From Candidatus Alloenteromonas pullicola (GTDB lineage Bacteria; Bacillota_I; Bacilli_A; RFN20; CAG-826), in the NCBI GenBank assembly GCA_018714785.1, contig DVMV01000008.1, forward strand, positions 1 through 44,818: DNA of 44,818 bases. The letters are read 5' to 3'. The notes under the pieces were generated by a model, which had not been told where the DNA came from, ran no database searches, and worked only from the letters and a program-made list of their open reading frames with translations. This document shows, in pieces, positions 738-42,461 of the stretch (the first letter of the stretch is position 1; every line of letters starts with the position of its first letter). Position numbers and translations under genes: made by a program.

Positions 738-743
738 TATAAT
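738..743 (+). promoter_or_regulatory. -10 box (TATAAT) placing predicted +1 at 750, the A of ATG
   Basis: TATAAT 738-743, 6 nt, ATG 750. Confidence 0.65.
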
Positions 744-749
744 CAAGCC

Positions 750-1946
750 ATGAGTCAACACATAGGAATAATCAAGCTGCGGTCGGCTCTATCGGCCGGC
801 GACAAGGACCTCGTGGGCGAGGCTAGCGAGTTCCTTTCATCCTTATCGCCTAATGGCGAATATGAATTCGAGAACGCCGGCAAGGGCAAGATGAACGTCT
901 TCTTGGTCCTCACCGGCGGATCGGAGACCTCGTTCAAGGACTTCTACAAGAACTACGAGGCCCCTTACTTCATATTGCCGACCGGCAAGCGCAACTCGCT
1001 TGCCGCCAGCCTCGAGATCGTCTCCTACCTGCATGAGCAGGGCGAGCCCGCCATCCTCCTATACGGCGAGGATCAGAAGAAGATGTTAGACGGGGCGGTC
1101 AGGGTATATAACGCCCTCCACGCCCTGCGCGGCGCTAGGCTGGGCGTAATCGGGGGATCGTCATCCTGGCTCATCGCCTCCAACATCGACCGGAAGAAGG
1201 CCAAGAAGGCGCTCGGCATCGATATAGTCGACATCCCGATGAGGGAAGTATTGGGATATTACGACGAGCACCTGCTCGCCGACGACACCTTGTTCTCTAG
1301 GTTCGAGGGCAAGACCAGGCGCAAGGAGGAGCTCCGCGAGGCCCTATATGTCCACGGGGCCTTGAAGAAGCTCGTGAAGACCCGCGGGCTAAGCGCGCTT
1401 ACCATGAAGTGCTTCGACCTCATCACCGCCAAGCAGGTCAGCGCCTGCCTCGCCTTCGCCTTGCTCAACGAGGAGGGCATCATCGCCGGATGCGAGGGCG
1501 ACATACCATCCGCGCTCACCATGATGATCATGCAGGCCCTCACCGGGGAGGCGCCGTTCATGGCCAACCCGGCCTACATGGACGCTGAGCATAGCGAAGC
1601 GGTCTATGCGCACTGCACGATTCCCATCTCCATGCTGACCTCCTATACCTTGGCCACCCACTTCGAATCGGGGCTTTCCTTCGCGCTTAGGGGGCAGCTC
1701 AAGAAGACCACCTTCACCGCGGCCAAGCTTTCGCCCGCGCTAGACGACATAAGGGGCCTTTCCGGCGAGATAATCGACAATCCGATCGAAGACAAGATGT
1801 GCCGCACCCAGATAAAGGTGAGGTTCAACGGCTCGTTGAAGCCTTTGCTGGAGAAGCCATACGGCAACCACATGATCTTCTCCTACGGAGACTACACCGA
1901 GGAGCTGGGCATGCTGTCCGCGCTCCTGGCCCATTTTTGCAAGTGA
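750..1946 (+). CDS. L-fucose/arabinose isomerase-like family protein
   Basis: Motifs LPTGKRNSLAASLEIVSYL, GVIGGSSSWLIAS, GCEGDIPSALTMMI, CRTQI; ATG at 750 preferred over ORF start 717. Confidence 0.65.
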   Translation: MSQHIGIIKLRSALSAGDKDLVGEASEFLSSLSPNGEYEFENAGKGKMNVFLVLTGGSETSFKDFYKNYEAPYFILPTGKRNSLAASLEIVSYLHEQGEPAILLYGEDQKKMLDGAVRVYNALHALRGARLGVIGGSSSWLIASNIDRKKAKKALGIDIVDIPMREVLGYYDEHLLADDTLFSRFEGKTRRKEELREALYVHGALKKLVKTRGLSALTMKCFDLITAKQVSACLAFALLNEEGIIAGCEGDIPSALTMMIMQALTGEAPFMANPAYMDAEHSEAVYAHCTIPISMLTSYTLATHFESGLSFALRGQLKKTTFTAAKLSPALDDIRGLSGEIIDNPIEDKMCRTQIKVRFNGSLKPLLEKPYGNHMIFSYGDYTEELGMLSALLAHFCK

Positions 1947-1965
1947 CGGGCATAAGTGCTATTAT
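1937..1965 (+). promoter_or_regulatory. sigma-A type promoter for the yloU-fakA unit
   Basis: TTGCAA - 17 bp - TATTAT with TGc extended -10; predicted +1 at 1972. Confidence 0.65.
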
Positions 1966-2024
1966 CACCTCTAGGCTTCTTATAGAAGCGCTTCCCAACC
2001 CGATAAATTGATCTGGCAAAGGAA

Positions 2025-2396
2025 ATGAGCATCAAAGAGAACACACCCTACGGGGGAATCAACATCTCGATGGAGGCTATTGCCTCGGTCGCGGGGCGGG
2101 CCGCCAGCGAATGCTATGGCGTGCTCGGCCTTTCGTCTAGGTCGTCATTGAAGGACAACCTATACGAACTGCTCAGGGCAGAGGACTACGTCAAAGGGGT
2201 CTCCGCCAAGAAGAGCAAGAAGGGGTACGAGGTGGATGTCTACGTCTGCTGCGCCTATGGCGTCAAGCTTCCCGAGATACTCTCCGAAGTCCAGAAGAAA
2301 GTGAAATATGTCCTCGAGAAGACGTTCGAGATGAAGTTCGCCTCGGTCAACGTCTACGTCGCCGACATAAAAGAGATAGCAAATGAAAACGATTGA
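2025..2396 (+). CDS. yloU: Asp23/Gls24 family envelope stress protein (YloU-like)
   Basis: GGINISMEAIASVAGRAASECYGVLGLS motif; located directly upstream of the fakA/yloV homologue. Confidence 0.85.
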   Translation: MSIKENTPYGGINISMEAIASVAGRAASECYGVLGLSSRSSLKDNLYELLRAEDYVKGVSAKKSKKGYEVDVYVCCAYGVKLPEILSEVQKKVKYVLEKTFEMKFASVNVYVADIKEIANEND

Positions 2397-4116
2397 CGCG
2401 ACTACCCTGAAGGGGATGTATATCTCCGCCGCCAATAACCTTTATAACCATTATCCGGAGATAGACCAGCTCAACGTCTTCCCCGTACCCGATGGCGACA
2501 CCGGCATGAACATGAACCTGACCGTCACCTCGGGCGCGAAGGAGATACAGAACCGCGAGTTCGACGACCTCCACGCGGTCGCCAGCAATTTCAGCCGCGG
2601 CCTTTTGATGGGCGCGCGCGGTAATTCCGGCGTCATCACCAGCCAGATATTCCGCGGCTTCGCCCAGGGATGCGAGGGGAAGAAGACCCTCAACGCCATC
2701 GACCTGGCCAAGGCCCTGGTATCCGGGAAGGAAGTCGCCTACAAGGCCGTCATGAAGCCGGTAGAAGGCACCATTTTGACCGTCATCCGCGAATCCAGCG
2801 CCGCGCTCAAGGAATTCGTTCAGAAAGGCACCACGATCGAGGAGGCCTTCGACTATTTCCTCGAGCAGGCCAAGAAGTCGCTAGAGCACACCCCTGAGCT
2901 ATTGCCCGTATTGAAGGAAGTCGGGGTCGTCGACTCCGGCGGCGCGGGCTTGGTCCGCATCATCGAGGGCATGGCCTCCGCGGTCCATGGCCACATCATC
3001 GAGCGCAACGCCGACGTCGCCACCGCCGAGCCTGCCGCCCCCCTTTACGCCGGGGCCAAGCTATCCGAGGACGACGAGGAGGCCTATGGCTACTGCACCC
3101 AGTTCATCCTCCGCCTAGACGACGGAAAGACCCCGGGCAAGAAGCCCTTCAACGAGAAGAACTTCATGAGGTTCCTCTCCGCTCATGGCAAGTCGCTGGT
3201 CACCGTCCGGGACGAGGAGATCGTCAAGGTCCACGTCCACGCCCTTTCCCCGGGCATGATGCTCAACTACGCCCAGCAGTTCGGCGAGTTCGTGACCATC
3301 ATCATCGAGAACATGTCCGAGGAGCACCACAACATCGAGAAAGGCTACAAAGCCACCGATTACCTCAAGGCCCTCGAGGGCGATGGGGCGAGGAAGAAGG
3401 AGCAGGTCCTGCCCGAGCCCGAGGAGGAGAACCCCTCGCTGGACAAGGACATGGCCCTCATCTCGGTTTGCTCCGGCGCGGGGCTAGAGGAGATGTTCAA
3501 GGAGCTCGGCGTCGATGAGATCGTCTCCGGCGGGCAGACCATGAACCCCTCGACCGAGGATTTCGTCAAGGCAATCAAGAAAACAAGGGCCCGCAACGTG
3601 CTGATATTGCCCAACAACTCCAACATCGTCATGGCCGCCTCCCAGGCCGCCGACGTGATGGAGGGAAGCGAGATAAAGGTCAAGGTCGTGCAGTCGAAGA
3701 CCATTCCCCAGGGGATCGCCTCCGCCATGATGTACAACCCCGAAGGCGACCTCGAATCGGTGTATTCCGAGATGAAGAGCGCCCTCAAGACCATCAGCTC
3801 CGGCTCGGTCACCTACGCCATCAAGGACACCGAGATCGAAGGCGTCCACATCACCAAGGGCTTCTACATGGCCATGAAGGACAAGAACATCGTCAGCTGC
3901 GTCAAGGACAAGCTCGAGGCGCTGTTCGATCTATCCGAGTCGCTGCTTCGCCGCGGCGAGCCGTCCATCATCACCGTCATCGCCGGCGAGGACGTCACCG
4001 ACGAGGAGGCTTCCAAGGCCCGCGAGGTGCTCGAGGAAAGATACGGCGACGAGATCGAGGTCGACGTCAAGCGCGGCGGCCAGCCGGTGTATTCCTTCCT
4101 TGTCGGCGTCGAATGA
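2383..4116 (+). CDS. fakA: DhaL/DAK2-domain fatty acid kinase FakA (YloV)
   Basis: NVFPVPDGDTGMNMNLT, MGARGNSGVITSQI, GVVDSGGAGL motifs. Confidence 0.92.
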   Translation: MKTIDATTLKGMYISAANNLYNHYPEIDQLNVFPVPDGDTGMNMNLTVTSGAKEIQNREFDDLHAVASNFSRGLLMGARGNSGVITSQIFRGFAQGCEGKKTLNAIDLAKALVSGKEVAYKAVMKPVEGTILTVIRESSAALKEFVQKGTTIEEAFDYFLEQAKKSLEHTPELLPVLKEVGVVDSGGAGLVRIIEGMASAVHGHIIERNADVATAEPAAPLYAGAKLSEDDEEAYGYCTQFILRLDDGKTPGKKPFNEKNFMRFLSAHGKSLVTVRDEEIVKVHVHALSPGMMLNYAQQFGEFVTIIIENMSEEHHNIEKGYKATDYLKALEGDGARKKEQVLPEPEEENPSLDKDMALISVCSGAGLEEMFKELGVDEIVSGGQTMNPSTEDFVKAIKKTRARNVLILPNNSNIVMAASQAADVMEGSEIKVKVVQSKTIPQGIASAMMYNPEGDLESVYSEMKSALKTISSGSVTYAIKDTEIEGVHITKGFYMAMKDKNIVSCVKDKLEALFDLSESLLRRGEPSIITVIAGEDVTDEEASKAREVLEERYGDEIEVDVKRGGQPVYSFLVGVE

Positions 4117-4123
4117 ATCCATT

Positions 4124-4145
4124 GGGACCTATTGGTCCCTTTTTT
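4124..4145 (+). terminator. Rho-independent terminator
   Basis: GGGACC-TATT-GGTCCC-TTTTTT. Confidence 0.8.
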
Positions 4146-4147
4146 GG

Positions 4148-4156
4148 TGGTAGACT
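4148..4156 (+). promoter_or_regulatory. extended -10 box (TGgTAGACT) for recG, predicted +1 at the ATG
   Basis: TAGACT ends 4156; ATG at 4163. Confidence 0.5.
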
Positions 4157-4162
4157 TTCCCT

Positions 4163-6154
4163 ATGAAGCTCACCTCCTCGAAGAAGCTATCGGCCTTGCT
4201 CTCCCAGATGGGCATCTACTCGACCCTGGACGTGATAAACCACCTCCCGCGTCGGTATGAGACGTTTTTCTATTCCCCGGTTGAGGAGCTCCGGCACCTC
4301 GAGCACGGCCAGCGGGCGGTGATATTGGGGAAGATAATAACCCCGGTGAGGGCGGTGCGCTTCGGCAGGATGTCGGCGGCGAGGTTCTATATCTCCAGCC
4401 TCGGCATGGATTTCGCCGTCTGCGCCTACAACCGCGCCTACCTCGGCACCAGCTTCAAGGAAGATGACCTGGTCACCATCTCGGCGACCTACGACGCCAA
4501 GCGGCACGAGCTCTCGCTAATAAGCATCAAGAAGGGCGAGATCGACGAAAACCATCGCATAGTCCCGATATATTCATTGCCCGCCGATTACCCGAACCAC
4601 CTTTTCGCGGATCTCGTAAAAAAGAGCCTTTTATCTTTGAAAGGGGAGATTTACGAGCATATCCCGGAAATATTTCGCCGCAAATACCGGCTCATCAGCC
4701 GGGAAGACGCCTATTGGCGCTGCCATTTCCCGAGGAGCAAAGAAGACGTAAACGCCGGCAGAAGGGTCCTCAAATACGAGGAAGCCCTCCGCTTCACGCT
4801 GCACAACCTGCTCATCAAGCGGCAGAACAAGGCGCTAACCAAGGGGCAAAGCGTTCCCATCGACCTGGCCAAGGTCGAATCGTTCGTCTCCTCATTGCCC
4901 TATAAGCTCACCGGCGATCAGAAGAAGGCGTGCGGGGAGTGCATCAAGGACATGGACGACAGGTCGCTCATGACCAGGCTGCTACAAGGCGACGTCGGGA
5001 CCGGCAAGACGCTGGTCGCCGCGGTGCTTTCCTACGCCAACTTCACCAGGGGCTGCCAAACCGCCATCATGGCCCCGACCGAGTCGCTGGCCCGGCAGCA
5101 CCTTGACTATTTTTCCTCCCTTCTGGGCAAGACCGGCATGAACATCGCCCTGCTGACCGGCTCGACCGATAGGCAGGAGAGGAAGAGGATCCTATCCGAC
5201 CTAAAAGACGGGACCATCGACCTATTGATCGGGACCCATGCCCTGTTCGGCGAGGGGGTAATTTACCCCAACCTAGGGCTCGCCATCATCGACGAGCAGC
5301 ACAAGTTCGGCGTCAACCAGCGCGCCAGGCTATTGGGCAAAGGCGAGAAGGCCGACCTGCTATTGATGTCCGCCACCCCGATCCCGCGGACCCTCTCGCT
5401 GACCCTATACGGCGACATCGACGTCTCGACCCTTTCCGAGTTCCCCTTCAAGGCCAGGAAGGTGACGATCAAGGTGGTGCCGGAGAACCTATCCCGGGCG
5501 GTGGCTACGCTAAAGAAGACGCTGCAGCGGGGCAAGCAAGCCTACGTCATAGCCCCGCGGATCGAGGGGGAGGGCAACCTCGGGGCCATCAGAGTTTTCG
5601 CTTCTTTGGACCAGGATTTGCCGGGAAAATGCGTGCTGTTGCACGGCTCGATGGATGAAGGGGAGAAGCTTGCCGCGCTATCGGAGTTCAAATCGGGCGA
5701 GCGCCCGATACTGGTGGCGACCTCCATCGTCGAGGTCGGCATCGACGTGAAGAGCGCCGACACGATGCTCATCTTCGGCCCGACCCATTTCTCGCTATCC
5801 TCCCTCCACCAGCTGCGAGGCAGGATCGGCCGCGACGGCTCCGAGGCCTATTTCTACATGCTCATCTCCGCCCCGACGGAGGAGGAGAAGGAGAAGCTCT
5901 CGGTTCTGGTGAATTCAAACGACGGCTTCGAGATCGCCGAGGCGGATCTGAGGCTTCGCGGCCCCGGCACGATATCGGGCACCAAGCAAAGCGGCTTCCC
6001 CGAGTTCGCCTTCGCCTCGATCGCGACCGACCTCCGCATGTTCGAATGCGCCCGGCAGGATGCCTCATACATCCTCGAGCACGAGGCCGATCCGCAATTC
6101 GCCTATCTGCTTCAGGAAGCCAGAAAATCCTCCCAAGGCATAAGCCTTGCTTAA
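4163..6154 (+). CDS. recG: ATP-dependent DNA helicase RecG
   Basis: GDVGTGKT, DEQHKFGV, SATPIPRTL, QLRGRIGRDG motifs; full-length (663 aa). Confidence 0.96.
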   Translation: MKLTSSKKLSALLSQMGIYSTLDVINHLPRRYETFFYSPVEELRHLEHGQRAVILGKIITPVRAVRFGRMSAARFYISSLGMDFAVCAYNRAYLGTSFKEDDLVTISATYDAKRHELSLISIKKGEIDENHRIVPIYSLPADYPNHLFADLVKKSLLSLKGEIYEHIPEIFRRKYRLISREDAYWRCHFPRSKEDVNAGRRVLKYEEALRFTLHNLLIKRQNKALTKGQSVPIDLAKVESFVSSLPYKLTGDQKKACGECIKDMDDRSLMTRLLQGDVGTGKTLVAAVLSYANFTRGCQTAIMAPTESLARQHLDYFSSLLGKTGMNIALLTGSTDRQERKRILSDLKDGTIDLLIGTHALFGEGVIYPNLGLAIIDEQHKFGVNQRARLLGKGEKADLLLMSATPIPRTLSLTLYGDIDVSTLSEFPFKARKVTIKVVPENLSRAVATLKKTLQRGKQAYVIAPRIEGEGNLGAIRVFASLDQDLPGKCVLLHGSMDEGEKLAALSEFKSGERPILVATSIVEVGIDVKSADTMLIFGPTHFSLSSLHQLRGRIGRDGSEAYFYMLISAPTEEEKEKLSVLVNSNDGFEIAEADLRLRGPGTISGTKQSGFPEFAFASIATDLRMFECARQDASYILEHEADPQFAYLLQEARKSSQGISLA

Positions 6155-6172
6155 AAGTTGGGCAAAAACCGG

Positions 6173-6178
6173 TATACT
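6173..6178 (+). promoter_or_regulatory. -10 box (TATACT) for rnc, predicted +1 6185
   Basis: TATACT followed 7 nt later by ATG 6186. Confidence 0.5.
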
Positions 6179-6185
6179 ACTCCTG

Positions 6186-6881
6186 ATGAGCAGCGAATAC
6201 ATGGCCTTGTACAGGCAGTTCAACATCAAGCCGAACAACGAGGAGCTTTACCGGCTGGCCTTCACCCATTCCTCCTACAACGGGATGGCCGGGACCCGCC
6301 ACCAGGACTATGAGCGGCTCGAGTTCCTCGGCGATTCGATAATCGGGTTCGTCACCTCCGAGCTTTGCTATACCTTCCATCCCGACATGGAGCAAGGCCA
6401 GCTGAGCATGCTAAAGGCCCAGTTCATCCGCTCCTCGAGCGAGGCGAAATACTGCCGAAAGCTCGGGCTTGGCCAATACATCAGGGTCGGGGCGAGCTTC
6501 GTCAAGGAGGCCTCGACCAACATCTCGCTTTTAGAGGACGTATTCGAGTCCTTCGTAGGGGCGGTGTTCCTCGACCAGGGGCTGGTGTTCTGCTACAACC
6601 TCGTGAGGAAGATCTTCGAGGAGGACATCAAGAACGCCACCATCGACATTGCCATCAACCCCAAGTCGCGGCTGCAGGAATGCATGCAGGCCGACTCGAA
6701 GGAATCGGTCACCTACCGGATACTGAAGGAGGAGGGCAGCGCCGCCGACAAGCGCTTCCTCGCCGGGGTCTACTTCGAGGGCAAGGAGATCGGGAGGGGA
6801 TACGGCCACAACAAGAAGCTGGCCGAGACCGCCGCGGCCCAAAACGCCTTGGACAAGATGGCGTTGCCGGAAGGGAAGTAG
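6186..6881 (+). CDS. rnc: Ribonuclease III
   Basis: ERLEFLGDSIIGF catalytic signature; C-terminal dsRBD (AETAAAQNALDKM). Confidence 0.95.
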   Translation: MSSEYMALYRQFNIKPNNEELYRLAFTHSSYNGMAGTRHQDYERLEFLGDSIIGFVTSELCYTFHPDMEQGQLSMLKAQFIRSSSEAKYCRKLGLGQYIRVGASFVKEASTNISLLEDVFESFVGAVFLDQGLVFCYNLVRKIFEEDIKNATIDIAINPKSRLQECMQADSKESVTYRILKEEGSAADKRFLAGVYFEGKEIGRGYGHNKKLAETAAAQNALDKMALPEGK

Positions 6882-6883
6882 CA

Positions 6884-7870
6884 ATGGGACTTTTTTCGTT
6901 TCTGAGGAATAAATTCAAGGGGCAGCCCAAGGACGAGGCCACCAAGACCTACGAGAAGGGGATGTCCAAATCCCGGAAGGCATTCGCCTCGAAGCTCGAC
7001 GAGCTTTCAAAGCGCTACAAGAAGGTCGACCAGGAATACTTCGAGGAGCTCGAGGAGATACTGATCGAGTCCGACGTCGGGGTTGAGCTCTCCCTTTCAT
7101 TATGCGAGAAGCTGCTCGACAAATCGGCCAAGGAGGGATTGACCGACCCCAAAGCGATAAACGACGCGCTGGTCGACCTGATGTTCGTCGATTACGCCAC
7201 CAAGGGCGATTCGATCGTGAACGAAGTCCGCTTCGTCCCCGGGGTGACCGTTCTATTGGTCGTCGGGGTCAATGGCGTCGGGAAGACCACTTCCATCGCA
7301 AAACTCGCCTATCGCTACAAGAAAACGGGCAAGAAGGTGATGCTCGCCGCCGGGGATACCTTCCGCGCCGGGGCGGTGGAGCAGCTTTCGGTCTGGGCCG
7401 ATAGGCTCGGCATCGAAATAATGAAAGGCAAGGAGAACGAGGATCCCGCCTCGGTGGCCTTCGCGGCCGCCAAGAAGGCCAAGGAGGAGGGCGTCGACCT
7501 GCTTATCGTCGACACCGCCGGCAGGCAGCAGACCAAGGCCAACCTGATGCAGGAGCTCGGCAAGATATCCCGCGTATTGGGCAAGGAGATCGAGGGAGCC
7601 CCCCACGAGACCTTCCTCATCATCGACGCCACGACCGGCCAAAACGGGGTGCTTCAGGCCAGGAGCTTCAAGGAAGTCACCAACCTAACCGGCATCGTCG
7701 TGACCAAGATGGATGGGACGTCCAAGGGCGGCATCATCCTCTCCATACGCGATGAGCTCGGCGTCCCCGTCCGCTTCATGGGACTAGGCGAGAGGATGGA
7801 GGACCTCGAGGAATTCGACCTCGACAAGTACCTATACGGCCTATTGCTGGGGGATGAGAGCAATGGATGA
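6884..7870 (+). CDS. ftsY: Signal recognition particle receptor FtsY
   Basis: [39 protein letters not shown] motifs; ATG at 6884 within longer ORF 6365-7870. Confidence 0.96.
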
Positions 7871-8198
7871 GCTCGATAAGCGCAACCACGCCATCGCGCT
7901 TTTCGCCATGTATGGCGGATTGCTCTCGAAAACCCAGAGGCAGGCGCTAAGCAGCCACCTCTGCTACGACCTTTCGATTTCGGAGATCGCGGAGTCGGGG
8001 AAGATAAGCCGGGCCGCCGCCTCCGACGCCATCACCAAGGGGATGGAGAAGCTGCAGAAGATAGAGGACGCCCTTGGGCTGCTGGAAAAACAGCAGGAAT
8101 ACGCTTCGGCCATACAAGCCATCGAGCTAGTCGATGACGAAAAGGCCAAGCTCAGCCTTTACAGGGCATTAGGGAGGTTATTCACCCATGGCATTTGA
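7863..8198 (+). CDS. ylxM: YlxM/p13-like SRP-associated HTH protein
   Basis: [26 protein letters not shown]...DLSISEIAE; conserved position between ftsY and ffh (start 7863 or 7854). Confidence 0.85.
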
Positions 8199-9519: not shown

Positions 9520-9522
9520 AAC

Positions 9523-11388: not shown

Positions 11389-11574
11389 CCCCGCATCGCC
11401 ATCGGTATATCCAAGAAGAGCCTTTCCGACATCGCCCTAACCTATAGCCATGAATATGATGGCTTCCCCCTCCTTATCGACGACCCTTGGCATTGATGAA
11501 GCGTCGACCGAATGGCGATAGTGGTGCATTTTTTCGCCCGCGGGATATAATGTTGCAAACCAAGGAGGCATTCA

Positions 11575-12237: not shown

Positions 12238-12250
12238 TTGGGCAAAAAGA

Positions 12251-13547: not shown

Positions 13548-13566
13548 AATAAAGAAACGGCGGGAA

Positions 13567-14747: not shown

Positions 14748-14776
14748 TTGCCATCGGCCCGATAGGCCCATATAAT
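14748..14776 (+). promoter_or_regulatory. Promoter of lepB with predicted +1 exactly at the ATG
   Basis: TTGCCA - 17 bp - TATAAT, then 6 nt, ATG 14783. Confidence 0.75.
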
Positions 14777-15640: not shown

Positions 15641-15675
15641 CCTTTTGCTTTCCTAATATCTATAATTTCGGCGAT

Positions 15676-18074: not shown

Positions 18075-18103
18075 TTGACTTTCCCTTTCCCGCTATCTAT
18101 ATT
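18075..18103 (+). promoter_or_regulatory. topA promoter
   Basis: TTGACT - 17 bp - TATATT; predicted +1 18110, ATG 18114. Confidence 0.7.
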
Positions 18104-25336: not shown

Positions 25337-25882
25337 ATGGATGCCTATACCCAAGAAGCTTCCTCCAAGATGGGGAAGTCGATCGAATCGCTTCAGAACA
25401 GCCTAGCCAAGCTCCGGTCCGGAAGGGCCAACCCGTCGATGCTCGACGGAATCAAGTGCGACTACTACGGCGAGAAGATGGATATCACCTCCCTCTGCTC
25501 GATCCAGATGCCCGAGCCGCGCCAACTTTACGTCAAGCCCTATTCCCGCGAGGACCTGAAGACCATCGCCGCCGCGATAAGCGCCGCCAACCTCGGCGTC
25601 AACCCGCAGACCGAGGCCGATGGCATCAGGATCGTTGTCCCGCCGCTGACCGAGGAGCTCCGCCGCGACATCGCCAAGAAGGCCAAGGCCCTAGGCGACG
25701 AGGCCAAGGTCTCGATCCGCAACATCCGCCGCGACGTCTTGAACCTCCTAAAGGAGGATGACTCGATGTCGGACGACTACAAGGACCGCGTCGAGGACGA
25801 GATCCAGAAGGAAGTCGAATCGGCCAACAAGAAGGTCGATGGCATAATCGCCGAAAAGACGAAGGAGATAATGACCATCTGA
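25337..25882 (+). CDS. frr: Ribosome recycling factor
   Basis: LAKLRSGRANPSMLDGIKCDYYG; IVVPPLTEELRRDIAK. Confidence 0.97.
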   Translation: MDAYTQEASSKMGKSIESLQNSLAKLRSGRANPSMLDGIKCDYYGEKMDITSLCSIQMPEPRQLYVKPYSREDLKTIAAAISAANLGVNPQTEADGIRIVVPPLTEELRRDIAKKAKALGDEAKVSIRNIRRDVLNLLKEDDSMSDDYKDRVEDEIQKEVESANKKVDGIIAEKTKEIMTI

Positions 25883-25885
25883 TAG

Positions 25886-25907
25886 GGAGGGCTAAGCCCT
25901 CCTTTTT
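25886..25907 (+). terminator. Rho-independent terminator after frr
   Basis: GGAGGG-ctaag-CCCTCC-TTTTT. Confidence 0.8.
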
Positions 25908-25925
25908 CTATCCCTTGCCAGGTTA

Positions 25926-25931
25926 TATAAT
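25926..25931 (+). promoter_or_regulatory. -10 box (TATAAT) for uppS, predicted +1 exactly at the ATG
   Basis: TATAAT, 6 nt, ATG 25938. Confidence 0.6.
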
Positions 25932-25937
25932 TAGCCG

Positions 25938-26669
25938 ATGAGCAAAGAAGAGTTTGTATTGACTAAGCCGTTGCGCCACATCGCCTTCATCATGGATGGC
26001 AACGGGCGCTGGGCCAAGGCCAGGGGGCTGCCGCGCACATTGGGGCATAAGAAGGCCTGCGAGATGCTACGCGGCATTTTCGACGCCTGCTATGAGCAGC
26101 ATATATACGCGATGAGCTTCTTCGCCTTCTCCACCGAGAACTGGAACCGGCCGGAGGATGAGATAACCCACCTTATGGATTACCTCGAGGAGTTCTTCAA
26201 GAAGAACATGGATTACCTGCTTTCCAAAGGAGCCCGGGTGATCGTCAGCGGCGACCTTAGCAGGTTGCGCCCCTCGACCAGGGAGACCTGCCTTAGGGCC
26301 ATCGAGGAATCCAAGGGCAACGATGCCTGCGTCCTCAACGTCTGCCTGAATTACGGAGGCCGCGACGACATCGTCCACGCGTGCCGGAATATAGCCGAGG
26401 ACGTCAAATCCGGAAAGATTGAGGGAAAGGACATCGATGAGAGGCTTTTCGCCTCCTATCTATATACCGCCGGGCTTCCCGACGTCGATCTGCTAGTCCG
26501 AACATCGGGGGAGCAGAGGATATCGAACTACATGCTGTATCAGATCGCCTATGCCGAGCTGGTCTTCACCCCGGTGAAATGGCCGGATTTCGACAAAGCC
26601 GCATTGATCGACTGCCTAAAGGAATACTGCGGCCGCATCCGCCGCTTTGGAGGGCTCAAGAATGAATAG
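25938..26669 (+). CDS. uppS: Isoprenyl transferase (undecaprenyl diphosphate synthase)
   Basis: IAFIMDGNGRWAKARGLPRTLGH; DLLVRTSGEQRISNY. Confidence 0.96.
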   Translation: MSKEEFVLTKPLRHIAFIMDGNGRWAKARGLPRTLGHKKACEMLRGIFDACYEQHIYAMSFFAFSTENWNRPEDEITHLMDYLEEFFKKNMDYLLSKGARVIVSGDLSRLRPSTRETCLRAIEESKGNDACVLNVCLNYGGRDDIVHACRNIAEDVKSGKIEGKDIDERLFASYLYTAGLPDVDLLVRTSGEQRISNYMLYQIAYAELVFTPVKWPDFDKAALIDCLKEYCGRIRRFGGLKNE

Positions 26670-30173: not shown

Positions 30174-30185
30174 GGAGGCGGGTTT

Positions 30186-34577: not shown

Positions 34578-34592
34578 CTCCGATGGTATATT
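34564..34592 (+). promoter_or_regulatory. Promoter for tRNA-Pro, overlapping the polC stop region
   Basis: TTGATT - 17 bp - TATATT; predicted +1 34599. Confidence 0.6.
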
Positions 34593-34613
34593 TCACTTCG
34601 CGCGTAAGCGCAT

Positions 34614-34690
34614 CGGGACGTAGCACAGCTTGGTAGTGCGCCTGGTTCGGGACCAGGAGGTCGCGGGTTCGAACCCCGCCGTTCCGACCA
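34614..34690 (+). tRNA. tRNA-Pro (anticodon CGG), CCA encoded
   Basis: Cloverleaf: acceptor CGGGACG/CGTTCCG, anticodon arm CCTGG-TTCGGGA-CCAGG, T arm GGGTTCGAACCCC. Confidence 0.95.
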
Positions 34691-34701
34691 TCGTGAAGAA
34701 T

Positions 34702-34731
34702 CCTATAATGGCAAAACATTATAGGTTTTTT
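34702..34731 (+). terminator. Rho-independent terminator after tRNA-Pro
   Basis: CCTATAATG-gcaaaa-CATTATAGG-TTTTTT. Confidence 0.9.
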
Positions 34732-34836
34732 GCTTTCTTTGCGCGGATGGCCCATAGACAACTGTTTTAAAGAACCTCCACTAATGTATAATTGACGTTA
34801 GCCAAGACTTTTTGGCTATGCAAAGGAGCATCGAAA

Positions 34837-35889
34837 ATGGCTTTCTATGAGTTAATAAAATACGATGGCACCGGCATAGATTGGCTTTTGGCCAAACATC
34901 CGGTTGACGAGTTCAACAACAAGAGCCGCCTCATCGTATCCCCTGGGCAGATCGCGATAATCGTCCATTCTGGGAAGATCGAGAAGATCTGCGAGGAAGG
35001 AAGCTTCAGGATCAATTCCGAATTGCTTCCGATACTGAAGTCCTTCACCAAGGCCTTCTACGGCGGCAAGAACCCCTATCCAATCGAGATATACTTCGTC
35101 AACAAGCGTTTGAAGCTGGACCTGCTTTGGGGCACCAGCGACCCGATTAAGCTCATCGACCCGAAATATTCCATTCAGATCAATGTCAGGGCCAGGGGGC
35201 AGATGGGGATAAGGCTCAGCAACTACCAGTATTTCCTGCAGACCTTGGTCGGGACCCTGATGAAGGGATCGGTGGTGGATTTCGCCGCCATCCAGAGCTT
35301 CTTCCGCGGGAAGGTCAACCAGATCGTCAAGAAGGAGCTGTCCGCCTTCATACTCGGGAACAAGGTTACCTATTTCGAAATCGACTTGCATCTCGACGAC
35401 ATCTCCAAGCGGATCGGCGACCAGATAAAGGAAGAGCTCGCCGGATATGGCTTCGATATGCTCTCGCTGTCGATCGAATCCATAAATGTGCCCGACGCCG
35501 AACTCAATAAGCTCAACGAGATTCTGCACAAGAAGGCCGAATACGATCAGCTCGGCGACAAGGTCTATCGGACCGCCAGGGGATACGACGTCCTCGAGGC
35601 TGGGGCTGAGAACAACGCCGCCGCGGCCACCATCATGGGAGTGGGGCTAGGGAACAACATCGCCGGGTCCACCGGATCGATCATCCCCGCCTCCGAACCG
35701 GAGAATAAGGCTAAGCCGGCCGGGAAGCACTGCCCCAACTGCGGGGCTGCGGTCGCTTCGGGGGCGAAGTTCTGCCCCGAATGCGGCGCCAAGCTATCCG
35801 CCACCTGCCCCAAATGCGGGCACGAGATCTCGCCCAACGCCAAATTCTGCCCCAACTGCGGGGAGAGCCTGAAGAAGGAGGGAGAATGA
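34837..35889 (+). CDS. SPFH-domain / virion-core-like (YdjI-type) protein with C-terminal double zinc ribbons
   Basis: N-terminal SPFH-like region; CPNCGAAVASGAKFCPECGAKL and CPKCGHEISPNAKFCPNCGESL. Confidence 0.82.
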   Translation: MAFYELIKYDGTGIDWLLAKHPVDEFNNKSRLIVSPGQIAIIVHSGKIEKICEEGSFRINSELLPILKSFTKAFYGGKNPYPIEIYFVNKRLKLDLLWGTSDPIKLIDPKYSIQINVRARGQMGIRLSNYQYFLQTLVGTLMKGSVVDFAAIQSFFRGKVNQIVKKELSAFILGNKVTYFEIDLHLDDISKRIGDQIKEELAGYGFDMLSLSIESINVPDAELNKLNEILHKKAEYDQLGDKVYRTARGYDVLEAGAENNAAAATIMGVGLGNNIAGSTGSIIPASEPENKAKPAGKHCPNCGAAVASGAKFCPECGAKLSATCPKCGHEISPNAKFCPNCGESLKKEGE

Positions 35890-35890
35890 C

Positions 35891-36343
35891 ATGAAACTCC
35901 GCATCGCCTATCTAGTTTTCGCCATCGGGGTCGCCGGGCTAGTCATCGGCTTGCCGTTTAGCTTCGACAACTCGCTTTTCACCGACTCGATGCTCGGATA
36001 TTACATCGCCTCCAAGGTGGTGTTCTTCCTGACCCTGATCGCCGCGGTCACCTATTCGCTCGTGTCCAAAGCCCCGACTGGGTCCAGCAGCTGGCTGACC
36101 GGCATCGCCTTTGTCTTCCAGCTGGTGCCGCTAGGCCTCCGCTACCTGCTGCTTACCGGCTACGGAGCCGCCGGAACTTGGTGCATCGTGATAATGGTTT
36201 TGTGCGTCTTGGCCTTCGTCGGGTTGGCCCTTGGGCTGTCGTGGCAGGACGGCAAGATGGTCAAAAACGACGAGGATAGCGCCGGCAAGACCATCCCGGT
36301 TGAGCCGGAGAAGGTTAGCCTGAAGGAGGAAGAAAAGAAATGA
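35891..36343 (+). CDS. Small multi-TM membrane protein
   Basis: Four hydrophobic segments; intact; overlaps downstream ORF start (ATGA). Confidence 0.75.
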   Translation: MKLRIAYLVFAIGVAGLVIGLPFSFDNSLFTDSMLGYYIASKVVFFLTLIAAVTYSLVSKAPTGSSSWLTGIAFVFQLVPLGLRYLLLTGYGAAGTWCIVIMVLCVLAFVGLALGLSWQDGKMVKNDEDSAGKTIPVEPEKVSLKEEEKK

Positions 36344-36606
36344 GCAAGGAATGCCCGAACTGCGGATACGCTTTCTCCGCTTCCGATGCCAAGTGCCCAT
36401 ATTGCGGCACCGCGAACCCCGATTACGTCCCGACCGCGAAGCCGGTCGCGGCTAGACCGGCCTCGCCGACCCAAAACTACGTCTCCAACGCCGGGTCCAA
36501 CCAGACCCCGGCCAAGAAGAAAGAACCCAATTGGATTATCTTCATCATCCTGCTGATAATCTGCTGGCCGATTGCCATCGTCTACCTTTTGGTGAAGATA
36601 GCCTAA
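36340..36606 (+). CDS. Zinc-ribbon protein with single C-terminal TM helix
   Basis: CPNCGYAFSASDAKCPYCG; C-terminal WIIFIILLIICWPIAIVYLLVKIA. Confidence 0.78.
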   Translation: MSKECPNCGYAFSASDAKCPYCGTANPDYVPTAKPVAARPASPTQNYVSNAGSNQTPAKKKEPNWIIFIILLIICWPIAIVYLLVKIA

Positions 36607-36650
36607 TTTCCTATCGCTTTGTCCGCACTTGGTGATAAAATCACCGTGCT

Positions 36651-36726
36651 GTCGCTGTAGCTCAGTGGATAGAGCGACCGCCTCCTAAGCGGTAGGCCGG
36701 AGGTTCGAATCCTCTCAGCGACGCCA
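36651..36726 (+). tRNA. tRNA-Arg (anticodon CCT), CCA encoded
   Basis: Acceptor GTCGCTG/CAGCGAC; anticodon arm ACCGC-CTCCTAA-GCGGT. Confidence 0.95.
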
Positions 36727-36798
36727 TCGCAAAATCGCCCCCGGCTTCATTCCGTGGGCTTTTTCTTTGCTTTCAAAGGGGAATTACGCGGTATTCTC

Positions 36799-36825
36799 GA
36801 AAAATAAAACCGGCTTTTGCCGGTT
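36799..36825 (-). terminator. Rho-independent terminator for the minus-strand PII-like gene
   Basis: Minus strand AACCGGC-aaaa-GCCGGTT-TTATTTTT. Confidence 0.75.
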
Positions 36826-36827
36826 GT

Positions 36828-37160
36828 TTATAGCGATCCTTCGTTATCGGTGGACTGCAGGACGAACATCCCGCCTTTGATGCTCTTGAAGGAATTGGTC
36901 GCCTCGCGGATCATCTTCTTCAGGTCGTCGAGCTTGTCGTCGTCGATGGTGATGAACAAGGTTAGGTTGCCGCTTGGCAGGTCGTCGACCATGGCCGCCA
37001 AGGGAATGGCACCCGACACGTCGTCGTCGAATTTCGGGAGGATGTGGTGGAGGCCACTGGTCGGAATGACCGTTCCGTTGTAGCCTTTTTCCGATAGCCG
37101 GCGAAGCAATTCCTCGGTCGCCGGAACGTGGTCTAGTATCGCGAATAGAAGCTTCTTCAT
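36828..37160 (-). CDS. PII-like protein, possibly cyclic-di-AMP receptor-like (DarA/PstA fold)
   Basis: MKKLLFAILDHVPATEELLRRLSEKGYNGTVIPTSGLHHIL... resembles PII-superfamily start; SD aggagg upstream of internal ATG. Confidence 0.5.
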   Translation of the reverse strand: MKKLLFAILDHVPATEELLRRLSEKGYNGTVIPTSGLHHILPKFDDDVSGAIPLAAMVDDLPSGNLTLFITIDDDKLDDLKKMIREATNSFKSIKGGMFVLQSTDNEGSL

Positions 37161-37235
37161 CTTCTTTCCTCCTGCCAAAGGCTAATATATCATATACGCG
37201 CGTTTTATAGGCGCAATAAAAAGGAAGGTCAATCA

Positions 37236-37736
37236 ATGGTAAAGATATACGTCAAGGACTTCGGCGTCATGAGCGCCGAACTGTATTGGGACGCCGCCCC
37301 GAACTCCTGCGCGAATTTCGTCTCCGTCGCCAGGCAAGGGCTATACGAGGGGACCGTCTTCCACCGCATCATCAAGAACTTCATGATCCAGGGCGGGGCG
37401 CTGGAGATGGTTGGCAAATCGCTTGGCTACACCATCAAGGGCGAGTTCAAGGCCAACGGGGTCGACAACCCGATAAAGCACACCCGCGGGGTGCTCTCCT
37501 ATGCCCGCACGATGGTCAACGACTCGGCCACCACCCAGTTCTTCATCGTCCACAAGGACTCGCCGCACCTCGATGGGCAATACTCCGCGTTCGGCAAGCT
37601 GGTCGATGGATTCGACGTGCTGGATAAGCTGGCCGGTTTGCCCACCAACTTCCGCGACATGCCTTATCCGCTTCCGGTCATAGAGAAGGTCGAGGTAATC
37701 GATGAGCCCGATAGGGAAGTCGAGAAGATAAAATGA
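37236..37736 (+). CDS. Cyclophilin-type peptidyl-prolyl cis-trans isomerase
   Basis: [42 protein letters not shown]. Confidence 0.95.
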
Positions 37737-38293
37737 CCGTCGAGGAGTTCGTTTCCGCGGTCAAAGACGGTCTAAGCATCGCTACATCGGAGGCCCATGC
37801 CTTGATGGACTCGCAATCCTCTGAGGCCCGAAAGATAACCGCCAAGATCAACGATGGATACAAGGACATGGATGAGATCAGGGCGCTGTTCTCCGAACTC
37901 ATCGGGGAGAAGGTAGACCCCTCGTTCCGCCTGTTCCCGCCGTTTCAAACCGATTTTGGACGCAATATCCATGTTGGGAAGAACGTGTTCATCAACTCGT
38001 ATTGCTGCTTTCAGGACCATGGTGGGATCTATATCGGCGACGGGGCGCTGATCGGCCATCAGGTCGTCTTGGCCACGCTCAACCACGAAATCGATCCGCT
38101 GCGCCGCTTCGACATGGTCGCCAAGCCGATCCATATCGGCAAGAACGTCTGGATCGGATCCCACGCCACCATCCTCCCGGGGGTGACCATCGGCGATGGG
38201 GCGGTCGTGGCCGCCGGCGCCGTCGTGACTAAGGACGTCGAGCCCAACACGGTGGTGGGTGGAGTTCCAGCCAAGTTGATAAAACGGATTTGA
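37733..38293 (+). CDS. Left-handed beta-helix O-acetyltransferase (maltose/galactoside acetyltransferase family)
   Basis: Hexapeptide repeats; [58 protein letters not shown]. Confidence 0.9.
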
Positions 38294-38299
38294 AATGTG

Positions 38300-38328
38300 T
38301 TGACATCCTCTTCTAGCGCGCATATTCT
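38300..38328 (+). promoter_or_regulatory. Promoter for tRNA-Ala
   Basis: TTGACA - 17 bp - TATTCT; predicted +1 38335. Confidence 0.75.
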
Positions 38329-38356
38329 AATAAACGCGCTTAAGCGCGATGTCCTT

Positions 38357-38432
38357 GGGCCTTTAGCTCAGCTGGGAGAGCGCCTCCATGGCATGGAGGA
38401 GGTCGTGGGTTCGAGCCCCATAAGGTCCACCA
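38357..38432 (+). tRNA. tRNA-Ala (anticodon GGC), CCA encoded
   Basis: Acceptor GGGCCTT/AAGGTCC; anticodon arm CCTCC-ATGGCAT-GGAGG. Confidence 0.95.
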
Positions 38433-38445
38433 AGCAAAAAGCAAG

Positions 38446-38469
38446 CGGAGCCTGTTGGCTCCGTTTTTT
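38446..38469 (+). terminator. Rho-independent terminator after tRNA-Ala
   Basis: CGGAGCC-tgtt-GGCTCCG-TTTTTT. Confidence 0.88.
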
Positions 38470-38534
38470 ACAACTCTACCGATGGTTTGTTTATTTGCCC
38501 TCGGCGTTATTTAAAATGTCCTCAGAGGTCGCCT

Positions 38535-38681
38535 ATGGATCAATCTAAAATCGGATTGTTCATATCATCTTGTCGGAAGGAAAAGGGCCTCACCCAAGCC
38601 CAGTTGGCCGATATGCTAGGAATAAGCGACCGCGCGGTCTCAAATTGGGAGCGGGGGAAGGCGATGCCCGAAATGCCATAA
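38535..38681 (+). pseudogene. Truncated XRE-family HTH regulator (about 48 aa)
   Basis: IGLFISSCRKEKGLTQAQLADMLGISDRAVSNWERGKAMPEMP then stop; helix-turn-helix present, no C-terminal domain. Confidence 0.6.
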
Positions 38682-38801
38682 GAGGTCTTGGTGCGGGAAG
38701 ACGATGCAATAGCGCCCAAAAAATATTCTCGCCATCTAGCCTAAAACGCTAAAAATTTGCAATATTCTAAGCTTTCGTGATAGTTATTAATTTAAGGGAA
38801 T

Positions 38802-39170
38802 ATGAAAGCGCTGACGTTTATAAGACATATCTCGAAAATGGCCTCATCGGGAGGGAACCACAGATTCGCCTTCGCCTTCGCCAACGCCTTGATAGTCGGG
38901 CTGGCGATTCTGTTCTTCTTCCTATGCAAATATTGCTTTGGAATCATGGAAAGCAATTTCGCCGGCGGACTGCTTGGCGGCATACTTTGCGTCGCGCTTT
39001 CGATCTTCTGCGGATTGCACGGGATAATAGCCCAAATCGCGTTGGTCTTCATTTCGCTTATCGGGATATTCGGCAAAGAGCAAAGGGCCGGCAATTTCGG
39101 CGCCTTCTTGGTCTCCTTGGCCTCGCTTATCGCCGGGGCGGTGGCCGTGTACTTCATATTTCTAAACTGA
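38802..39170 (+). CDS. Small membrane protein, 3-4 TM
   Basis: 122 aa, hydrophobic segments throughout; aaggga before ATG. Confidence 0.6.
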   Translation: MKALTFIRHISKMASSGGNHRFAFAFANALIVGLAILFFFLCKYCFGIMESNFAGGLLGGILCVALSIFCGLHGIIAQIALVFISLIGIFGKEQRAGNFGAFLVSLASLIAGAVAVYFIFLN

Positions 39171-39182
39171 TGAAGATATACA

Positions 39183-39211
39183 TTGGCACGTATCAATATG
39201 ACTACTAATAT
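39183..39211 (+). promoter_or_regulatory. Promoter of arsR-like gene
   Basis: TTGGCA - 17 bp - TAATAT; predicted +1 39218. Confidence 0.55.
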
Positions 39212-39229
39212 ATTGATAGATATCAATAT
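39191..39229. promoter_or_regulatory. Candidate ArsR operator: three TATCAATAT half-sites
   Basis: TATCAATAT 39191-39199, inverted 39210-39218, direct 39221-39229; last two form ATATTGATA-ga-TATCAATAT (9-2-9). Confidence 0.75.
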
Positions 39230-39237
39230 GTGTGATT

Positions 39238-39516
39238 ATGGAAGACATCGAACTTGAGAAAATCATGAAGGCCATCGCCGATCCGACCAGGATCAGAATC
39301 ATTCAGCTGCTGCCTAGCGATGGCGGGATATGCGCCTGCAGGCTGCTGGAGAACCTAAAGATCACCCAAGGGACCCTCTCGCATCATATGAAGGTCCTAT
39401 GCGAAGCGGGGTTGGTGAACTGCGCAAAAGATGGGAAGTGGTGCCGTTACACCATCAATCAGGCAGCCCTCGACAACTTGATTTCGTTCTTGTCCTGTTT
39501 GGGCAAAGGAAGGTAG
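39238..39516 (+). CDS. ArsR/SmtB family metalloregulator
   Basis: MKAIADPTRIRIIQLL; ICACRLLENLKITQGTLSHHMKVLCEAGLV (Cys-rich recognition-helix region). Confidence 0.92.
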   Translation: MEDIELEKIMKAIADPTRIRIIQLLPSDGGICACRLLENLKITQGTLSHHMKVLCEAGLVNCAKDGKWCRYTINQAALDNLISFLSCLGKGR

Positions 39517-39518
39517 CT

Positions 39519-39635
39519 GGCAGGCCACGTTGGCCGGCGCTCGCGATAGATGGCCGGGTCGTGTCGTTTGGCCGCGTCCTTTCGGTTGCCCAGGCGAAGG
39601 AACTGCTCTCCAAGGCGATGGGCGGCCGGCGCTAA
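39519..39635 (+). pseudogene. C-terminal remnant of a small thioredoxin-fold protein
   Basis: Frame reads WPALAIDGRVVSFGRVLSVAQAKELLSKAMGGRR, resembling the cis-Pro/C-terminal part of redox-active disulfide proteins often encoded with arsR; no start or CxxC. Confidence 0.5.
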
Positions 39636-40003
39636 GCCCTGCTTTGAAGCGGCACGAAGAAGCAGCACTTCGCGACTTTGAGCCTTTCGGATTGGCCTAT
39701 TTCCTCGGCTGCCGCTTTGGCCCCGATTCCGTCAAGCAGATCTAGATAGTAGAGGTGCAGCGGCGCCTCGCTTGCCATGGCCAGGAAATGCTTGGTCAGC
39801 GTTTTGATGCTTGATATTCGCTCATCATAATCGATTTTTGCGGACATCCTGAAACCGAATCGCCCGTTTTTCACGTCCTCGTAGCTGGCGTGCGTTTTGC
39901 AGCCGTTTGCCCCTCCGAGCCTGCACGCGATGACGCCGGGAATCGAGGATATCCCTGCCGTATTTTCATCAATCGCCTCAAAACTGATCACAACGCTTTT
40001 CAT
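39632..40003 (-). CDS. Hypothetical 123-aa protein
   Basis: Intact minus ORF from internal ATG at 40003; -10 TATACT on minus strand (40015-40010) puts +1 at the ATG. Confidence 0.55.
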   Translation of the reverse strand: MKSVVISFEAIDENTAGISSIPGVIACRLGGANGCKTHASYEDVKNGRFGFRMSAKIDYDERISSIKTLTKHFLAMASEAPLHLYYLDLLDGIGAKAAAEEIGQSERLKVAKCCFFVPLQSRA

Positions 40004-40033
40004 GGGATGAGTATATCGCAATGCCTTTCCCGC

Positions 40034-40062
40034 TTTATAAAAAATCGCGGTCGGGGGATAAT
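40034..40062 (+). promoter_or_regulatory. Promoter of GH3 gene
   Basis: TTTATA - 17 bp - GATAAT; predicted +1 40069, ATG 40071. Confidence 0.5.
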
Positions 40063-40069
40063 TCCCCCG
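40052..40069. repeat. GC inverted repeat enclosing the -10 box of the GH3 gene
   Basis: CGGGGGA-TAAT-TCCCCCG. Confidence 0.8.
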
Positions 40070-40070
40070 T

Positions 40071-42461
40071 ATGAGGAAAAAGAACAAGAACGCCGGAGGA
40101 CCGGCGATACCGCTGGAGGAGAAGATCGGCCTCCTGTATGGAGACGGGAACTGGAAGACGCACGGCTCGCCTACCCTCAACCTAAGCGGCGTCGTGATGC
40201 GCGATGGCCCTTTGGGCCTGCGCGACATCGATGATTCGGGCATGCTCGATGGGGCCAAGACCAACAAGGCCACCTGCTACCCAGCCCCCTGCCTTACCGC
40301 CTGCAGCTTCGACGTCGATCTGCTATCTAGGATCGGCGAGTCGATTGGCAAGGAATGCCGACACCGGGGAATAGACGTTTTGCTCGCCCCGGGAGTCAAT
40401 ATCAAGCGTAATCCGCTGTGCGGCCGCAATTTTGAATATTATTCCGAGGACCCTTTGCTCGCGGGGAAGCTTGGCGCCGCCTTCATCAACGGCATCCAGA
40501 AGCAGGGCGTCGGGGCTTGCCTGAAGCATTTCGCGTGCAATTCGCAAGAGACCGGGAGAATGGTCAACGACTCGATAATCGACGACCGCGCGCTCCACGA
40601 GATTTACCTGCGGGCTTTCTCGATTGCCGTGAAGGAAGCCGACCCATGGATGGTGATGTCGTCCTACAACAAGGTAAACGGGGAATACGCTTGCTCTTCC
40701 GAGTTCTTGCTCAAGCAAACTCTGCGCGCGGATTGGGGCTACGAGGGCGTCGTCGTTTCGGATTGGGGCGCCTCCGCCCATTACGTCGACGACCACAACC
40801 GCGGCCTCGACGTGGAGATGCCGTGCACGGTAAGCCGCGCCAAGGACCTAACGAAGGCGTATAAGCACGGCAAGCTAAGCCGGCAATCGCTGGATGAATG
40901 CGCAACCCACGTGGTATCGCTGTTGGAAAAAGCCGACAAAGGGAGGAAGCGCAAGGACGCATTCGATGAGCAGGAAGCCGATGCCTTGGCCCTAGAAGCT
41001 GCCACCAAGAGCATGGTATTGCTGCAAAACGACGGTATTTTGCCGCTTAAGAAATCCAATAAGGCCGTATATGTCGGCGAATTGGCCAAGAGCATCAGAA
41101 TCGTTGGCGGCGGGTCGAGCTGCGTCAACGCTCGCAAAACCCCCTCATTCATAGCGGGATTGGCCGAAAGCGACAAATACGCTCAAGGATATCGGCTTGA
41201 CGGGAAGGAAGATGAAACGCTCCGAATCGAGGCGGCCGACATTGCCTCTAAAGCCGACGTCGTGGTCCTGTTCATGGGACTCTCGGAGGCCGACGAATCG
41301 GAAGGCTTCGATCGCGAGTCGCTGTCTTTGCCGGAGGTGCAGCTGCACCTATTCGAGTCGATCTACGCGGTAAACCAGAACATAGTCGTCGTCCTCAACG
41401 TGGGTTCCCCGGTCGAACTGCCGTTCGCCGACCGCTGCAAGGCGATTCTGTTGGCCTACCTGCCTGGTCAGGATGGGGCCGAGGCGATAAGGGCGGTGCT
41501 GTCGGGTGAGGTTTCGCCTTCCGGGAAGCTGGCCGAGACCTGGCCCATCCATCTTTCCGACGTCCCCTCTTTCGGCTTCTATCCTGGCACATTGACGCAA
41601 TCGGAGTATCGCGAATCAATCTACGTCGGATATCGATACTATTGTTCAAGCGACGTCCCGGTCCGCTTCCCGTTTGGCCATGGGCTTAGCTATGCGAAGT
41701 TCAAATACGGAAAGTTGACGCTGTCGGATAAAGCGATAGACCGCGATGGAAAGATCAAAGCCACGATCGACGTGACCAATAACAGCGCCAAGCCCAGCGA
41801 GCTGGTTGTTGAGCTTTACGCTTCGCCCTGCGAAGGCAACGTGTTCAAGGCCAAGCGGTCGCTCATCGATTTCAAGAAGCAGCTCATCGGGGCCAAGGAA
41901 ACGAAGACCTATGAGTTCGAGATCCCCTACGATGCGTTCTCCCATTACGACATCGGCTCGGGGGCGTTTGAGGTCGAAGGCGGCAAATACGCCATCGAGG
42001 TCGGCGAAAGCGCGACCTCGATAGTCTCCAAGGCCATCATAAAGGTCAAAAGCGACGTCGAGTTCGAGCTTCGCCGCTCGGAGCTGCCGAATTACTACAA
42101 CCTCCCTGAGCATGGATTCATGCAGTCCGACGTCGATTTCGAGCATCTGCTTGGCCATCCGGTCCAGCTGCCGCGCGATTCCCGGGCCCGCCCATATACC
42201 ACCTCGTCCACCTTCGGCGACATCGGCTCCACCTTCATCGGCAAGATAATCAACAAGAAGGCCCATGGGCCCAACACCTATTCGGTTTCCGAGTCCGAAT
42301 CGGAGATGATCAAGCGGTCCATCGATTCCACTCCGATAAGGTGCATGCATATGCACGGATATAAGTCCAAGACCATCCTCGCGATAGTCGATATGGCCAA
42401 CGGGCACTATTTCAAAGCCTTGCTTCATTTCATCTTCGGGGTTGGCGTCCGTGATCTTTGA
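40071..42461 (+). CDS. Glycoside hydrolase family 3 (beta-glucosidase-like), no signal peptide
   Basis: GVNIKRNPLCGRNFEYYSEDPLLAG; KHFACNSQE; GVVVSDWGA nucleophile motif; C-terminal FnIII-like region. Confidence 0.93.
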   Translation: MRKKNKNAGGPAIPLEEKIGLLYGDGNWKTHGSPTLNLSGVVMRDGPLGLRDIDDSGMLDGAKTNKATCYPAPCLTACSFDVDLLSRIGESIGKECRHRGIDVLLAPGVNIKRNPLCGRNFEYYSEDPLLAGKLGAAFINGIQKQGVGACLKHFACNSQETGRMVNDSIIDDRALHEIYLRAFSIAVKEADPWMVMSSYNKVNGEYACSSEFLLKQTLRADWGYEGVVVSDWGASAHYVDDHNRGLDVEMPCTVSRAKDLTKAYKHGKLSRQSLDECATHVVSLLEKADKGRKRKDAFDEQEADALALEAATKSMVLLQNDGILPLKKSNKAVYVGELAKSIRIVGGGSSCVNARKTPSFIAGLAESDKYAQGYRLDGKEDETLRIEAADIASKADVVVLFMGLSEADESEGFDRESLSLPEVQLHLFESIYAVNQNIVVVLNVGSPVELPFADRCKAILLAYLPGQDGAEAIRAVLSGEVSPSGKLAETWPIHLSDVPSFGFYPGTLTQSEYRESIYVGYRYYCSSDVPVRFPFGHGLSYAKFKYGKLTLSDKAIDRDGKIKATIDVTNNSAKPSELVVELYASPCEGNVFKAKRSLIDFKKQLIGAKETKTYEFEIPYDAFSHYDIGSGAFEVEGGKYAIEVGESATSIVSKAIIKVKSDVEFELRRSELPNYYNLPEHGFMQSDVDFEHLLGHPVQLPRDSRARPYTTSSTFGDIGSTFIGKIINKKAHGPNTYSVSESESEMIKRSIDSTPIRCMHMHGYKSKTILAIVDMANGHYFKALLHFIFGVGVRDL

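Follow-up and report, generated by a model that had tools for sequence, protein, structure and literature searches.

Predicted leaderless and three-nucleotide-leader starts of first genes in a family of gut Bacilli with an intact anti-Shine-Dalgarno sequence

Leaderless genes have been reported in Lactobacillales and Mycoplasma, where a TAtAAT box lies about 12 bp upstream of the start codon and the Shine-Dalgarno (SD) sequence is absent; their mean share was 18.3% in Mycoplasma and 4.2% (2.4-16.6) in Firmicutes, over the 56 of 209 genomes in which they were detected (Zheng et al. 2011, PMC3160421). In Mycobacterium tuberculosis, mapping of transcription start sites (TSS) showed that 26% of the genes with a primary TSS are leaderless, with a -10 box 7-12 bp before the TSS, no -35 element and only rarely (7%) a TGn extension (PMC3898074). 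In Zymomonas mobilis, 119 of 2,675 TSS-gene pairs were measured as leaderless, leaders of up to 5 nt being counted as such (PMC7566282). The present analysis concerns a 44,818-nt stretch of Candidatus Alloenteromonas pullicola (contig DVMV01000008.1, referred to as the window) in which -10-like boxes stand directly before start codons, as well as the genome and the Bacilli family to which it belongs. It is very probable that in this family many transcription units have a first gene that starts without a leader or with one of 3 nt and that the remaining genes are SD-led; judged from the sequence, this is a new, dense and family-wide occurrence of already known leaderless genes.

The window is one contig (C3) of a metagenome-assembled genome (MAG) that comprises 1,046,311 bases in 41 contigs, is 86% complete and has a GC content of 57.9%; the closest relatives of its Ffh protein are mostly from gut MAGs deposited as Bacilli, Bacillales or Erysipelotrichaceae. 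It resembles the systems surveyed by Zheng et al. in its broad group (Firmicutes in that paper), in the -10-type box and in the absence of SD, but differs from them in that the genome is not AT-rich (GC 58%), the anti-SD of its relatives is intact, the internal genes are strongly SD-led, the survey does not list the lineage among its leaderless-rich clades, and an additional class with a putative 3-nt GNU leader is present. Features shared with M. tuberculosis (PMC3898074) are promoters overlapping the start codon, the spacing between the -10 box and the (here predicted) TSS, C at -1 and a purine at +1, and a leaderless set that has aminoacyl-tRNA synthetases and no ribosomal-protein genes, whereas the share inferred here from sequence is about 17% of non-internal genes, TGn reaches 28% and AUG is nearly exclusive. 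With Z. mobilis it has in common a minor but substantial leaderless set in an otherwise leader-using bacterium, although the latter belongs to another phylum and its set was measured.

Genome-wide counts were taken over all 41 contigs, d denoting the number of bases that separate the -10 hexamer from the start codon. In a caller-free count at ATG codons that open a frame of 60 codons or more, TATAAT was found 1, 8, 12, 4, 8, 5 and 2 times at d = 5 to 11, respectively, and 0 to 2 times at each of the flanking distances (d = 0-5 and 11-16); the pile-ups of TAGAAT, TAAAAT and TATACT resembled that of TATAAT. The histogram thus contains the peak at 6-10 nt on which the initial annotation had staked its proposal of widespread leaderless transcription. 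Genes were also called with a simple home-made codon-based caller that is blind to upstream signals, which gave 883 genes. A strict box, TA[TG]A[AC]T, occurred at d = 6-10 in 58 of the 508 genes outside operon interiors, compared with a chance level of 2.5 (Markov mean; maximum 8 over 200) or 3.1 (shuffles). TGn directly preceded the box in 16 of these 58 leaderless-like genes (28%, about 3.5 expected), TT was enriched at -23/-22, the -35 position, in leaderless-like and leadered promoters alike, and the best -35 match was shifted upward relative to shuffles, so that -35 and/or TGn elements of the sigma-70 type accompany the boxes.

Bacteroidetes, among others, are known to initiate without SD and with an upstream bias towards A/T (PMC5397173), and the TATAAT-like motif might likewise be an A/T-rich start context, acting through low structure or as an S1-type enhancer, rather than a promoter. 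This is highly improbable, as the motif matches the -10 hexamer exactly, has TGn and the -35 TT at specific positions, is mostly confined to non-internal genes and often lies directly past a terminator; among AT-matched controls, ATTATA, TTATAA and TATTAT gave no comparable peak in the whole genome and AATATT gave a small bump at d = 6 only. Near the start, mRNA folding was weak in leaderless, leadered and internal genes alike, and none of these groups stood out. For ribosomal protein S1, neither the family nor 12 of 14 control genomes gave a match above the cut-off.

An SD site was present in 2 of the 58 leaderless-like genes (3%), versus 40 of 62 genes (65%) with a -10 box at 16-45 nt and 229 of 366 operon-internal genes (63%), random sequence giving 7%. 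These figures bear out the proposal that genes heading a unit are often leaderless while internal ones are SD-led. The boxes of the leadered genes form a second peak at d of about 16-45, together with SD; under the rule of the d = 6 class, in which +1 is seven bases past the hexamer, their leaders would be 10-39 nt, and the leaderless and leadered populations thus separate. The anti-SD, GGATCACCTCCTTTCT, was read from the 16S rRNA of relatives, 16S not being present in the MAG of the window itself, and was intact in six members of the family, indicating that SD-led initiation is kept.

Since the choice of start codons from raw sequence is uncertain, with small margins for some of the called starts, the starts could be mis-assigned, the true ones lying downstream with SD and the promoters giving ordinary short leaders. 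We regard this as improbable. In-frame starts preceded by SD within 30 codons were found in 4 of 72 leaderless genes, which is not above the 33 of 366 internal genes and not clearly above the 2 of 78 leadered genes, that is, no excess of downstream SD-starts was seen in the leaderless set. Alignment with the orthologues of a genome of the same genus (G024; mean protein identity 54%), which was used in place of the poor gene calling in that genome (632 genes), put the start codons at the same residue, while the upstream DNA had otherwise diverged. At the aligned starts, a strict box was present in both genomes in 19 cases, in one only in 26 and 15, and in neither in 452, with an odds ratio of about 22. 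Family profiles also begin few residues from the called starts, as seen with LeuS (3-800 to 1-842), TyrS, MutS2, TruB, Def and topA. Gene finders that rely on SD only may, for their part, mis-place starts in the family of the window.

The start codons of the leaderless genes were about 71 ATG, 3 GTG (all at d = 6) and 1 TTG; near-exclusive use of ATG with hardly any TTG is expected of leaderless initiation. Of the features that characterise leaderless bacterial genes (Zheng et al. 2011; on the basis of TSS, a leader of 5 nt or less), a box at 6-10 nt above chance, no SD, AUG or GUG starts with UUG disfavoured, and conservation in orthologues were all found. Assigned to this set are recG, rnc, lepB, rbgA and uppS in the window and, elsewhere, uvrA, leuS, tyrS, mutS2, priA, truB, tgt, def, uppP and glyA, together with genes for a PcrA-type helicase, an EzrA-like protein and a RarA-like AAA ATPase. 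Their functions are in repair, tRNA and envelope, and no ribosomal protein was among the leaderless genes that were identified.

These features would be explained by ordinary vegetative sigma-70-type promoters, composed of TGn-TATAAT and a loose TT-rich -35, at which the first base transcribed by RNA polymerase is the A of the start codon (d = 6-7) or, in the GNU-AUG form (d = 9-10), a G three bases upstream. In many transcription units the first gene would thereby be read from a leaderless or 3-nt-leader mRNA without SD, and operon-internal and longer-leader genes would stay SD-led, the anti-SD of the ribosomes being normal. The position of the boxes, the absence of SD, the promoter character, the preference for AUG, the conservation and the distribution in the family were observed directly; from them we infer the transcription starts and, as in other bacteria, that ribosome and initiator tRNA recognise the 5'-AUG directly.

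Alternative promoters are common in bacteria, and if a stronger one stood upstream of most of these genes, the boxes would be real promoters and the leaderless mRNA only a minor form. This has little likelihood, given that the gaps are short (tandem median 61 nt) and leave little room, that 16 of 35 hold a terminator, and that the leaderless genes have no SD sites, which a leadered form would need. A few points nevertheless weigh against leaderless initiation at the scale proposed. At a minority of sites, a second, upstream promoter could add a leader. The strict boxes pick out only part of the leaderless set, and the loose pattern TANNNT, whose excess above the flanking positions was 85.5 in non-internal genes (17%) with a further 10 in internal genes, leads to an estimate of about 11% of all 874 genes that depends on background subtraction and on the home-made gene caller.

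The leaderless promoters are closely packed against the preceding units. The tandem gap had a median of 61 nt before leaderless versus 92 nt before leadered genes (P = 3e-5), and 27 of the 35 leaderless tandem gaps measured 25-75 nt. In the 16 gaps with an intrinsic terminator (shuffles, 0.1), the T-run started 18-31 nt upstream of the -10 hexamer in 11, i.e. within the -35 region or shortly upstream of it, and the module of terminator, promoter and AUG spans about 50-70 bp, with examples at 4124-4162 and 25880-25938 in the window. An extreme case in the window is recG (4124-4162), in which a hairpin, TTTTTT, TGG-TAGACT and ATG follow one another inside 50 bp. Such packing of terminator T-run, -35, -10 and AUG into about 50 bp suggests that genome streamlining may be why leaderless promoters are used.

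The bases between box and start codon differed with spacing. At d = 6, a pyrimidine directly preceded the ATG in 17 of 22 cases, and at d = 9, G was the seventh base past the hexamer, three before the ATG, in 17 of 20. For d = 9-10 taken together, G at -3 was found in 22 of 28, compared with 15 of 78 leadered genes (P = 4e-8), and T at -1 in 54%, compared with about 24% in internal and leadered genes (P = 0.001). Leadered promoters preferred a purine (69%), after C, at position 7 past the hexamer and favoured G there, but showed no preference for T at position 9; the -1 U thus belongs to the start codon and not to the promoter. In 14 relatives, d = 9 sites had G at -3 in 53% and T at -1 in 57%, the top triplets being GTT, GCT and GAT. 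Summed over 25 genomes of the family, TATAAT-N6-GNT-ATG occurred 100 times versus 15 for the reversed pattern; it exceeded its reversal elsewhere in the class too (42 versus 16 in family f19), so that any specificity to the family is one of degree.

For the longer spacings, the initial annotation had placed the start codon at +2 to +5. The hexamer distances behind that assignment hold, but at d = 9-10 the better reading is a putative 3-nt leader, with G at +1 and a U selected before the AUG, rather than a +1 sliding to the A. A clean rule of 0 or 3 leader nucleotides, drawn from the dip at d = 8, was rejected, as the dip is shallow in the TANNNT counts (33, 24, 17, 31, 13) and many d = 8 sites occur in G024; with 194 versus 131 sites in the 14 relatives (z 3.5), d = 9 over d = 8 is a preference and not a rule. 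An extended codon-anticodon interaction in initiation has been described (Esposito 2003, as cited in PMC9841429).

Tentatively, and with the odds somewhat against it, GNU-AUG (GUU, GCU or GAU before AUG) may be a discrete second SD-less signal, a minimal leader rather than loose spacing, in which the 3 nt may occupy the E site of the ribosome and a pair may form between the -1 U and A37 of the initiator tRNA; the extended interaction reportedly involves these same two bases. This class offers a direct test case for the function of a 3-nt leader.

The distribution of the spacing was surveyed in 237 Bacilli genomes and 58 of the order of the window as the ratio of TATAATN{6,10}ATG to TATAATN{11,15}ATG; the N{11,15} spacing control was adopted because a reversed-pattern control is too lenient in AT-rich genomes. 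All 25 sampled genomes of the window's family had an excess at 6-10 nt (3699 versus 2651, z 13), with ratios of 2-11 in low-background members (the window's genus and genus g9) and up to 11 in GC-rich members. The median ratio of 206 Bacilli genomes outside the order was 1.05. Elevated values were also seen in two other Bacilli families, f22 (genomes of 700-900 kb) and f25, to which G146, G176 and G153 belong and which might correspond to the cases that Zheng et al. 2011 (PMC3160421) reported in Mycoplasma and Lactobacillales, and likewise in the f5 genomes G050, G053 and G056 of the same order as the window. The view that such density is unusual among Bacilli is thus correct for the class, but the density is not unique in it. 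Dense leaderless initiation would thereby be extended to an entire family of uncultured Bacilli of the gut that has a normal anti-SD; as the latter is kept, both initiation modes occur side by side and lend themselves to comparison between individual genes.

In the window, a -10-like hexamer ended 6-10 nt upstream of the ATG at all nine starts for which one had been claimed, the GH3 box being only a weak one. On the plus strand, TATAAT (738-743) precedes the isomerase-like gene (d = 6, ATG 750). The recG box, TAGACT (4151-4156; d = 6, ATG 4163), is extended by TGG and lies directly downstream of the terminator of the preceding unit, GGGACC-TATT-GGTCCC-TTTTTT (4124-4145), recognised in the sequence and by terminator scan. 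TATACT (6173-6178) precedes rnc (d = 7, ATG 6186), the G024 orthologue of which has TATAAT at d = 6. For lepB, a -35-like TTGCCA (14748-14753) is 17 nt upstream of TATAAT (14771-14776; d = 6, ATG 14783), and for topA, TTGACT (18075-18080) is 17 nt upstream of TATATT (18098-18103; d = 10, ATG 18114). TATAAT (15661-15666) of rbgA/ylqF stands at d = 9 from ATG 15676, with GAT-ATG and a predicted 3-nt leader. The uppS box, TATAAT (25926-25931; d = 6, ATG 25938), follows a T-run of the preceding terminator that crosses the -35 region (25903-25925, terminator scan); in the G024 orthologue, TATAAT is at d = 8. The GH3 gene has GATAAT, lacking the first T (40057-40062; d = 8, ATG 40071), and TATACT on the minus strand (40010-40015; d = 6, ATG 40003) precedes an open reading frame (ORF) of 123 aa resembling a fragment of MsrA.

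Profile hidden Markov models confirmed recG, rnc, lepB, rbgA/ylqF, topA, uppS, GH3, ffh, rplS and rpsB. The product of the isomerase-like gene (750-1946) showed a weak relation, far below the cut-offs, to sulfoquinovose isomerase SftI and L-arabinose isomerase. The 123-aa ORF on the minus strand (39632-40003), which was not called by the gene caller, matched the MsrA family at residues 16-74 only; it is divergent from the GH3 gene and possibly encodes a truncated or diverged methionine sulfoxide reductase. At the end of the contig, two adjoining tRNA genes (43399-43562) are followed by a phage-type integrase gene (43655-44776, minus strand), and this end is likely the edge of an integrated element.

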